Source: Gammaproteobacteria bacterium (lineage in GTDB: Bacteria > Pseudomonadota > Gammaproteobacteria > Steroidobacterales > Steroidobacteraceae). Taken from it: a DNA stretch of 37,057 bases. The stretch lies in assembly GCA_010027845.1 (NCBI GenBank), contig RGUL01000017.1, positions 1 through 37,057 of the forward strand. The letters are read 5' to 3'. Position 1 is the stretch's first letter; each line of letters begins with the position of its first letter. The notes beneath the pieces are model-generated. The model ran no database searches. It was given only the letters and a program-made list of their open reading frames with translations, and was not told the origin of the DNA. The position numbers and the translations under genes are program-made. Positions 4,614 to 27,841 of the stretch are shown here, in pieces.

Positions 4614-4626
4614 ACGTCAATCCTCC
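4611..4626 (-). promoter_or_regulatory. Ribosome binding site and AUC initiation codon of infC
   Basis: GGAGGA at 4621-4626 is followed by seven bases and then ATC at 4611-4613. The Shine-Dalgarno lies in the last thrS codons and the thrS stop TGA (4617-4619) is in the spacer, so the two genes are coupled. A strong SD in front of a rare start codon is the arrangement expected for IF-3 feedback control of its own translation. Confidence 0.7.
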
Positions 4627-5654
4627 AAAGTTCGGCGCCCACGGCTATCGAGCTCGACGCGCAGCCGCTCGACGAAAGTCTGCGGAGACATCTGGCCCAG
4701 ATCCTTGCCGCTGCGGGTACGCACGGACAGAAGCTGCGCTGCTACTTCCTTGTCGCCTGCCACCAACATGTAGGGCACGCGCTGCAGCGTATGTTCGCGA
4801 ATCTTAAAGCCGATTTTCTCGTTGCGCAAGTCGGTTTCGACCCGAACCCCATGATTTTTAAGGAATTGGGCCGTCTCGCGCAGATAAGCGTCTTGCCGAT
4901 CGGTGATGTTCATCAGCACCACTTGAGTCGGGGCGAGCCAGGTCGGCAGCTTGCCGGCGTGGTGCTCGATCAGGATGCCGAGGAAACGCTCCAGCGAGCC
5001 GAAGATCGCCCGATGCAACATGACCGGGGTTTGCCGCTGACTGTGCTCGTCGATGTAATGCGCACCCAAGCGACCCGGCAGATTCAGATCGACCTGCAGC
5101 GTGCCGCACTGCCAGTCCCGACCGATCGCATCGCGCAGCACGAACTCGAGCTTGGGACCGTAAAACGCGCCCTCACCGGGGTTGAGCGAATAGTCGATGC
5201 CCGCCTCGCGTGCCGCTTCCTGAAGTGCCGATTCGGCTTTGTCCCAAATGTCGTCCGACCCAACACGCTTCGGCGGGCGATCGGAGAACTTGATGCGTAG
5301 GTCGTCGAAACCGAAGTCGCGATAGATCTCGAGGATCAGTTTGGTGACCGCAACCGACTCGGCGGTGATCTGCTCGGGGCTGACGAAGATGTGCGCATCG
5401 TCCTGCGTGAACGCGCGCACGCGCATCAACCCGTGCAAGGCGCCGGAGGGCTCGTAACGGTGCACTTTGCCGAACTCCGCATATCGCAACGGCAAGTCGC
5501 GGTAACTGCGCAGCCCTTGCTTGAAGATCTGCACGTGACCCGGGCAGTTCATCGGCTTGATCGCGTAGACGCGCTCGTCGGGCGTCTGCGTCGTGAACAT
5601 GTTTTCGCCAAATTTTTCCCAGTGACCAGAAGCCTCCCACAGGCTGCGGTCCAT
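4617..5654 (-). CDS. thrS: Threonyl-tRNA synthetase, C-terminal part (frame-broken gene)
   Basis: This is the C-terminal half of ThrRS: part of the catalytic core and the anticodon-binding domain. It begins [20 protein letters not shown]. It contains the zinc-ligand motif MNCPGH, motif 2 ([21 protein letters not shown]), and the [21 protein letters not shown] motif 3 region. The HGCP-type anticodon domain runs from [12 protein letters not shown] to the end. The residues joining it to the N-terminal half are in another frame: one base is missing from the GGGG run at 5660-5663. Restoring it gives the expected [17 protein letters not shown]. As written, this ORF lacks the N-terminal half and could not work alone. 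The stop precedes infC by three bases. Confidence 0.9.
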
Positions 5655-6415
5655 GAGTTGGGGCCGTTCACTTCTTGGAAGCCGGCGTCGCGCTGCTTAT
5701 CGCGCATGTAGGCGATCAAAGATTGGAACACCGTCCAACCCTTCGGGTGCCAGAACACCGCGCCGGGCGCCTCTTCCTGCATGTGAAACAGATCGAGCTC
5801 GCGACCGATACGGCGGTGGTCGCGCTTCTCGGCTTCCTCGAGCCGATGTAAATAATCTTTGAGGTCCTTTTCGTTCGACCAAGCCGTGCCGTAGATGCGT
5901 TGCAGCATCTCGTTGCGCGAATCGCCGCGCCAATACGCGCCTGCGACCTTCATCAATTTGAATACTTTGAGTTTGCCCGTCGACGGCACGTGCGGCCCCC
6001 GACAGAGGTCGACCCACTCGCCTTGGCCGTAGAGACTGATCGGCTCGTTCGAGGGAATGCTGGCGATGATCTCGGCTTTGTAATGCTCGCCGAGATTTTT
6101 GAAGAAAGTTACGGCTTCGTCGCGCGGCATCTCGCGCCGCGACACGGCGAGATTCGCCTGCGACAACTCCGTCATCTTCGCTTCGATGGCCGCGAGGTCT
6201 TCAGGCGTGAACGGCCGCTTGTACGCGAAGTCGTAGTAAAAGCCGTCCTCGATCACCGGACCGATCGTGACCTGCGCATCGGGGAACAACGACTGCACCG
6301 CTTGCGCGAGCAGGTGTGCGGTCGAGTGGCGAAGGACCTCGAGCGCGTCGGGGTGCTTGTCGGTGACGATTTCGAGCGCCGCATCGTCGGCGAGGCGGAA
6401 GCTGGTATCGACCAA
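5549..6415 (-). CDS. thrS: Threonyl-tRNA synthetase, N-terminal part (frame-broken and truncated)
   Basis: Carries the ThrRS editing domain with the HSTAH (HxxxH) site and the [10 protein letters not shown] segment, plus the start of the catalytic domain ([14 protein letters not shown]). Sequence after EVNGP near 5660 is out-of-frame read-through caused by the missing base. At the other end, the frame continues upstream of the TTG at 6415 as [19 protein letters not shown], the end of a TGS domain. It then meets TGA with no ATG or GTG. The likely real start is ATG at 6471, 16 bases after tRNA-Val, which is in another frame. About 24 codons of TGS appear lost between the ATGCC and the GCCATC. 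The gene therefore carries two independent lesions. Confidence 0.88.
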
Positions 6416-6487
6416 CCGGCCACCAACTTTGCCTGCGAGCGCCGCCTTGGCGAGACCCGCACCGATGGCATTTCATCGACTCTGAAT

Positions 6488-25511: not shown

Positions 25512-25574
25512 TTAGGACTGGCGCATCTCGTCTTCGAGGTTGACGGGGAGAATTTCGCGCGCGACGTCGGACAT
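25512..25574 (-). pseudogene. gyrA: DNA gyrase subunit A, N-terminal fragment
   Basis: ATG at 25574 starts [20 protein letters not shown], the unmistakable first 20 residues of GyrA, followed at once by TAA. The next expected residue is the tyrosine of SYLDYAMSVIVGRALPD. Instead the sequence jumps to the codons for PHGDSAVYD in another frame. This is the 5' end of the gene above. Confidence 0.9.
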
Positions 25575-26379: not shown

Positions 26380-26390
26380 ACGCGCGCATC

Positions 26391-27094
26391 ATGACCCACG
26401 ACGACTTCGATCCACGCCGCGTCGCCAACACGGCCGACGCACTCGAGGGCCGCGTGATCGCCATCACCGGTGCGACCGGTGGCTATGGCCGTGCGCTCGC
26501 ACTCGACTGTGCAAGACACGGCGCCGAGGTGATCCTCATCGGCCGTAACGTCAAAAAACTCGAGGCGGTACACGCCGAGATCGTCGCGGCTAAGCGCGGC
26601 GACGGATGCGCGACGCCCGAACCGGTGATCGCGCCCCTCGATCTAGAAAAGGCGATCGCCAAAGATTTCGATACGCTCGCGGATGCGATCGCCGCTCGGT
26701 TCGGTCGGCTGGACGGTCTGGTACACAATGCTGCGATGCTCGGCGAGGTGTCGCCGATCGCTCACCAAGACGTGCCGACCTGGGTACGCGTGGCCGCGTG
26801 GTGTTCATCACCTCAGGGTTGGCTTCGGCCGCCCGCGCCTACTGGGGCGCGTATGCCGTGTCGAAACACGCCTTAGAGGGGTTTGCCGGCGTGCTCGCCG
26901 ACGAACTCGAAAACACCAACGTCCGAGTCAATACTTTGAATCCGGGCCGAATGCGCACCACGATGCGCCGTGCCGCCTATCCTTCGGAAGACGCAGAGAC
27001 GCTACCGATGCCGGAAGTTGCCACCGGTGCGTGTATCGCGCTACTCGGCCCCGTCGCCAGCGGCATCACGGGCCGCCGGTTCGACGCGCAGTGA
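26391..27094 (+). pseudogene. yciK: YciK-type short-chain dehydrogenase, internally deleted and frameshifted
   Basis: The first frame (from ATG 26391) has the NAD(P) motif TGATGGYGRALAL (the usual TGxxxGxG), LIGRNVKKL and the NNAG-like HNAAMLGEVSPI. It continues to TWVRV, then goes out of frame near 26790. The second frame resumes with VVFITSGLASAARAYWGAYAVSKHALEGFAGVLADE, containing the catalytic YxxxK, and ends GRRFDAQ at 27094. By comparison with YciK about 25 residues between them are missing (the VNV...LLPLL helix). The join lies between two copies of CGCGTGG at 26787-26793 and 26795-26801. Identity as YciK comes from order after ubiG and the FDAQ ending. The last 54 bases overlap rluB on the other strand. 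Confidence 0.85.
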
Positions 27095-27841
27095 CGCGGC
27101 CTCTTCGCTCGAAAGCGGGCGAAAGTGGCCGCGATTCAGATCACGCGTCAAAGTGAGTGGCCCGAGGCGCGTCCGCTGCACGCGACTCACAAGGGCTCCA
27201 TGGCGCTCGAACAAGCGCCGTACGTCCTTGCCGCTCGCGCCGATCGCGATGAGTTGATACCAACGATTAGCGCCTTCGGCCTCGTGCTCCGCACCGACGA
27301 CGTCCTCGATCTGCACGCGACGTCCGTCGTCGAGCACGCCGCTACGTAACGCGAGCAATTGCGGCTCTGGCAGCTCACCGCGCACGCGCACCAAAAATTC
27401 CACCGGCCAGCGGCGTACGCGGCGCTGCAGACGTTCGGCGAGCGCGCCGTCGGTGGTGACGAGTTCGAGCCCACCGTCGATTTGCGGCATTGGCGACACG
27501 GCGAGAAAGCGCTTACCGGCGCGACGCGGCAGGCGCTCGAGCAGTCCCTCGCGTAACGCTTCGCCCGGCGAACGATGACAAAGAAACGACGACTGCTCGG
27601 CTTTCAGTCGCGAGGCATCCCGTGATCGCCGCACGATACGGCCGTCGATGCGCAATTCGTCGCGCCCCGCGACGCGCATACCGAGTTCGGCGACGACGCC
27701 GTTGACCGTGACCCGACCGGCACGAATCCATTCTTCGGCTTCGCGACGCGAGGCCAGCCCCGCCTGCGCCAAAACTTTTTGCAGCCGATCGCCGCTATCG
27801 TCGGTCGGCGGGCGCGCTCCGCTACGACGTCGTGCGGTCAC
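27041..27841 (-). CDS. rluB: RluB/RsuA-family pseudouridine synthase with atypical active-site motif
   Basis: 266 residues. An S4 RNA-binding domain occupies about 18-65 (LQKVLAQAGLASRREAEEWIRAGRVTVNG). The RsuA-type domain follows, ending RLGPLTLTRDLNRGHFRPLSSEEAASL. The usual catalytic GRLDxxTxGLLL is replaced here by VSPMPQIDGGLELVTTDG at residues 115-132. In an ungapped alignment the catalytic aspartate position is proline; a shifted aspartate at 122 may take its place. The preceding YxKP-type segment is also poorly conserved (SSFLCHRSPGE). It may modify 23S rRNA or be an inactive rRNA-binding relative. The GTG start overlaps the scpB stop. Position after scpA-scpB is typical of rluB. Confidence 0.8.
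   Translation of the reverse strand: MTARRRSGARPPTDDSGDRLQKVLAQAGLASRREAEEWIRAGRVTVNGVVAELGMRVAGRDELRIDGRIVRRSRDASRLKAEQSSFLCHRSPGEALREGLLERLPRRAGKRFLAVSPMPQIDGGLELVTTDGALAERLQRRVRRWPVEFLVRVRGELPEPQLLALRSGVLDDGRRVQIEDVVGAEHEAEGANRWYQLIAIGASGKDVRRLFERHGALVSRVQRTRLGPLTLTRDLNRGHFRPLSSEEAASLRVEPAARDAAGDGAE

Follow-up and report, generated by a model that had tools for sequence, protein, structure and literature searches.

A probable assembly deletion in a yciK-type reductase gene of a gammaproteobacterial draft genome

A short-chain dehydrogenase/reductase (SDR) gene that keeps both its cofactor-binding and its catalytic parts, yet lacks the stretch that joins them, raises a simple question: was the segment lost from the organism, or from its sequence? 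The gene lies in a window of 37,057 nucleotides (the whole stretch of DNA that was analysed), which is one entire contig (C69) of genome G000, whose assembly comprises 182 contigs and 2.60 Mb and is 91% complete. Two copies of the heptamer CGCGTGG straddle the join, and a preliminary description of the locus had proposed a deletion between them.

The reductase gene in the window and in its congeners

The upstream frame of yciK starts at ATG 26391 and keeps its homology as far as TWVRV (GTG 26790-26792). Homology picks up again at 26795 with RVVFITSG, in a frame that differs from that of the upstream part. By direct reading of the sequence, CGCGTGG occupies 26787-26793 and 26795-26801, with the single base C26794 between the copies. 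The features are:

26391 to 27094, forward strand: yciK-type gene, 73 nucleotides missing at 26792/26795 and the frame shifted
26391 to 26792, forward strand: first part of the yciK-type SDR, 134 residues, with the cofactor motif TGATGGYG and HNAAMLG, up to TWVRV
26787 to 26801, forward strand: the join, reading CGCGTGG, C, CGCGTGG, where 73 nucleotides of the congeners are missing
26793 to 26876, forward strand: out-of-frame run-on of the first part past the join, with its stop at 26874-26876
26795 to 27094, forward strand: second part in the other frame, RVVFITSG to RRFDAQ, with YAVSK kept

The preliminary description had drawn much of this picture: homology ending at TWVRV and resuming at RVVFITSG, the two heptamers at these positions across the join, and an intact catalytic YxxxK and C-terminal FDAQ. 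Reading both frames bears it out, and both YAVSK and RRFDAQ are present in the downstream part.

Each part finds its best NCBIfam match in NF006509 (the YciK family, 248 positions), the first frame covering positions 7-121 and the second 145-245. Against Pfam PF00106 the corresponding ranges are 2-104 and 126-191. Scored separately and unjoined, the two parts reach 111.5 and 107.9 bits, short of the curated NF006509 cut-off of 269 bits. The N-terminal cofactor-binding half of the SDR fold is thus present (NF006509 7-121; PF00106 2-104), as are the active-site Ser and the YxxxK motif, found as ITSG...YAVSK in the second part (NF006509 145-245). Gone from the window are the MHVN segment and the helix that follows, both present by spacing and reading frame at 21 of 21 congener loci. 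The congener sequence of the lost segment resembles MHVNVTAPFALTQVLLPQLQASPDA; in a congener orthologue it aligns to MHVNVNATFMLTRALLPLLKRSEDA of 3i1j, the MHVN segment being aligned with MHVNVNATF. The Asn of MHVN is presumably the one in the Asn-Ser-Tyr-Lys tetrad of SDRs. A protein translated from the window's sequence as it stands would be unable to work as an SDR.

How do related genomes arrange this gene? The genus set comprises 24 genomes including the window's own, and yciK was matched in 21 of the 23 others. At all 21 loci the gene is a single open frame across the position of the join. The homology blocks are separated by 78 nucleotides at every one of these loci versus five in the window, so that 73 nucleotides are missing; most DNA alignments to congeners give the same offset. 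This amounts to 24 1/3 codons, in agreement with the earlier estimate of about 25 absent residues and a frame shift. One of the 21 loci, in congener G013, lies on a contig that ends past the join. The window's join occurs in none of the 21; nor does any of them combine that join with a conserved two-ORF structure, the arrangement that the preliminary description had named as the one to look for against its own reading.

The surrounding gene order (gyrA, ubiG, yciK, an rluB-like gene, scpB, scpA) is common to 16 of 16 congener loci. A second difference lies just upstream of yciK:

26380 to 26390, forward strand: gap of 11 nucleotides between ubiG and yciK, where a further gene stands in 16 of 16 congener loci

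The congener gene has a weak match to PF00494 (squalene/phytoene synthase; E 0.00065, below the cut-off). It is absent from the window with clean borders, and a search of the rest of the genome gave zero matches. This absence may be a true gene loss.

Two observations concern the neighbouring genes. In the rluB-like gene that adjoins yciK (27044-27841, reverse strand), the Pfam match is to the S4 domain only (three genomes tested), and SPMP or SPLP replaces the GRLD of E. coli RluB in 17 of 17 sequences (the window and 16 congeners, aligned to 4lab). We take GRLD to be the site of the catalytic Asp; judged by sequence, the gene looks like a genus-wide RluB homologue that lacks this residue. 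The genome holds four PF00849 matches, none on the window's contig. Separately, the record JAHREJ010000037.1 (L062), titled Bacillus subtilis, has a UbiG that is 56% identical to the window's, among Stenotrophomonas and relatives; the record is probably contaminated or mislabelled.

An intact yciK elsewhere in the genome was also sought. A search of the assembly with a congener YciK returned the two window parts and otherwise SDRs of at most 36% identity. The undeleted segment, sought in the genome as the degenerate pattern W-x-(R/K)-V-M-H-V-N with up to two mismatches, gave no match, the pattern being uncalibrated on a congener.

The two parts carry no further stops. Their mean pN/pS against congeners is 0.40 and 0.43; the corresponding values are 0.44 and 0.35 for the nearest congener, G006, and 0.23 to 0.39 for nine others. 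A long decay of yciK is therefore unlikely, because a purifying pattern has been kept and extra stops are lacking. The C-terminal half does rank first among the 11 genomes in mean pN (0.273, the runner-up having 0.232) and in pN/pS (0.43, the runner-up having 0.36), a possible hint that selection on yciK is relaxed.

Breaks in other genes and the cause of the join

No bacterium of this kind is known to manage without gyrase A or threonyl-tRNA synthetase. The genes for both, identified through the congener protein, are broken on the same contig:

25514 to 25515, reverse strand: join of a 170-nucleotide deletion in gyrA, with residues 1-20 at 25574-25515 and residue 78 onward from 25513
5654 to 5663, reverse strand: one-nucleotide deletion in thrS (4620-6469), shifting the frame

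In gyrA, 1.3 kb from yciK, the frame changes after the deletion and a TAA arises at the join; the gene is continuous at this position in 16 of 16 congener loci. Searches of the assembly found no second gyrA, the other gyrA-like match being ParC by model score (TIGR01062, 1070.6 bits), and no second thrS, the other match being a 30%-identical stretch on contig C116. Elsewhere in the genome, dnaK (contig C128; L211 about 8450) has a deletion of 38 nucleotides, with zero further dnaK matches in the assembly, and bchZ (contig C1; L197 about 16289, reverse strand) has one of 11. The name bchZ comes from TIGR02014 by way of congener G001; its presence suggests bacteriochlorophyll genes in the genus.

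Two counts place these breaks in context. Beyond the window, 40 further 20-kb stretches of the genome were screened against the ORFs of congener G001, which gave 153 comparable genes outside the window (42 + 23 + 88) and 183 covered in all. Two of the 153 are clearly broken (dnaK and bchZ), versus three of 30 in the window (Fisher p = 0.032), gyrA having been added to the latter by inspection. When the window's genes were scored in all genomes with one script, three of 29 were broken in the window versus three of 295 in the congeners (Fisher p = 0.011). The counts are of frame breaks, in-frame deletions within one alignment lying outside the screen. Of the three congener breaks, one is in scpA of G008, where a run of 20 Ns marks a gap openly; one is in trpS of G003, whose frame is shifted by about 20 nucleotides; and one is a flag in G018. 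The trpS case (L129 about 17350, reverse strand, G003:C31) is a like break in an independent assembly, and one without Ns. Confirmed breaks exclude the G018 flag and two truncated matches outside the window. Not counted among the breaks are several further lesion flags, judged false or uncertain: a 5' extension of uvrB and an ORF antisense to gyrA, both in the window; the N-terminal part of an ORF in the nuoC region; a 1148-residue ORF with a 43% N-terminal piece, judged from the numbers alone; and a 290-residue ORF.

As the sole copies found of gyrA and thrS are broken like yciK, the sequence is most simply taken to be wrong at these sites. The same most likely holds for the yciK join, where a draft, MAG-like assembly would have lost bases locally by error. 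A cell without gyrA, thrS and dnaK presumably could not live, so these deletions would be absent from the living genome, and the yciK deletion would share their cause. In the organism, then, the yciK-type reductase gene downstream of ubiG is most probably whole, and 73 of its nucleotides were left out of the assembled sequence. Technically, contig ends may have been abutted where a gap had no coverage, reads may have been chimeric, or the consensus may have been faulty. The evidence consists of intact orthologues at 21 of 21 congener loci, together with like breaks in gyrA, thrS and dnaK, genes presumed to be essential. The preliminary description had called the loss "recent or artefactual"; this holds, and the gyrA and thrS breaks nearby favour the second term.

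Some observations count against an artefact. None of the five joins retains the long overlap that a plain k-mer overlap join would leave behind. Ns, which would be a direct trace of scaffolding, are absent (none in 837,057 bases of the window's genome). Beyond the window, 153 genes showed only two confirmed breaks, too few to call the assembly error-ridden. The pN and pN/pS of the C-terminal half of yciK are high.

The strongest competitor is a genuine recent deletion of 73 bp, repaired by a process like non-homologous end joining or by polymerase slip with CGCGTGG unused, that left yciK a pseudogene. The gene yciK is not known as an essential one, and several features accord with such an event: apart from its single lesion, yciK is well conserved in both parts; searches turned up no further copy (the best remaining SDR has 36% identity, and the pattern for the undeleted segment had zero matches); the gene that should stand between ubiG and yciK is missing as well, its clean borders resembling a real loss in this operon; and pN is slightly raised in the C-terminal half. 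Breaks of the same type in gyrA, 1.3 kb away, and in thrS would be impossible in a living cell, however, and a shared cause for all the breaks is simpler. We regard a genuine deletion as unlikely.

It is considerably less probable still that the sampled cells themselves carry all the deletions. Short blunt deletions would then be frequent, yciK and the gene between it and ubiG would be on their way to being lost, and the gyrA and thrS breaks would belong to part of the population or to dominant DNA from dead cells.

The CGCGTGG repeats

When a segment is lost by slippage or recombination between direct repeats, a single copy stays behind. At this join both CGCGTGG copies survive, and a repeat-mediated deletion fails on this point. 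At 91 of 37,017 window positions a 7-mer is repeated 7-20 nucleotides downstream, and direct repeats of at least 7 nucleotides straddle 328 of 6,000 random blunt joins made in the same genome (5.5%). In three of the 21 congeners (G006, G001 and G023) the left hexamer CGCGTG is present, simply as codons for Arg-Val with an A after them; at the right-hand site, CGCGTGG is seen in none of the 21.

The other joins of the genome allow a broader comparison. A straddling 7-mer occurs at two of the five, yciK and dnaK (TCACCAA), and the repeats at gyrA, bchZ and thrS are three, four and four nucleotides long; at four of the five, the repeat is absent or of a length met at chance frequency. By our own arithmetic, at least two of five joins would have a 7-mer by chance about 3% of the time, so joins may have a weak tendency towards direct repeats. 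The CGCGTGG pair is thus only mildly unusual, a bystander and at most a weak hint; because both copies remain and 5.5% of random joins show such repeats, it is no indicator of mechanism.

The deletion between repeats put forward in the preliminary description, whether by slipped strands or by recombination, is accordingly not supported. Two heptamers do flank the yciK join, and the dnaK join is straddled by a direct repeat of the same length. Against this stand the second copy where one should be left, the short repeats at gyrA, bchZ and thrS, the random background, and the missing right-hand site in the congeners. That the repeats made the join is highly improbable. The chance of a working two-part or recoded gene, translated as two polypeptides or through a programmed frameshift, is next to nil: neither part is interrupted, and GTG 26798 would offer the second a start, but 21 of 21 congener genes are single open frames, and a frameshift cannot restore the missing 24-25 residues, the MHVN Asn and its helix among them.

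Relation to known systems

By itself, the yciK finding carries little weight. It matters for the reading of draft genomes: a broken gene in this one does not show that a gene was lost, given that the contig also carries broken copies of gyrA and thrS, and counts of pseudogenes or lost functions from such assemblies call for a check of essential genes first.

Many putative pseudogenes in bacterial assemblies stem from assembly errors, according to the abstract of a recent study (Cooley and Wright 2024, PMC11017572). The window resembles those spurious pseudogenes in having frame-broken core genes in a draft genome with intact orthologues in relatives. That abstract deals with pseudogene counts, assembler, platform and coverage, whereas the window's cuts are blunt deletions of 11-170 nucleotides and a one-nucleotide loss. 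Closer to home, the breaks in trpS of G003 and scpA of G008 are likewise short losses within core genes, although the scpA of G008 carries a run of 20 Ns and the window's join has none.

As a protein, the reductase belongs with the YciK family oxidoreductases (NF006509 / PRK08945; solved relatives 3i1j, 3iah and 3f1k/3f1l), which both window parts match best. A congener orthologue aligns to 3i1j over residues 18-260 (E 9.6e-68), with YciK entries of the E. coli type ranking lower. From this family the window's version differs in lacking the residues at profile positions 122-144, in its broken frame, and in the score of each part, which lies far under the cut-off.
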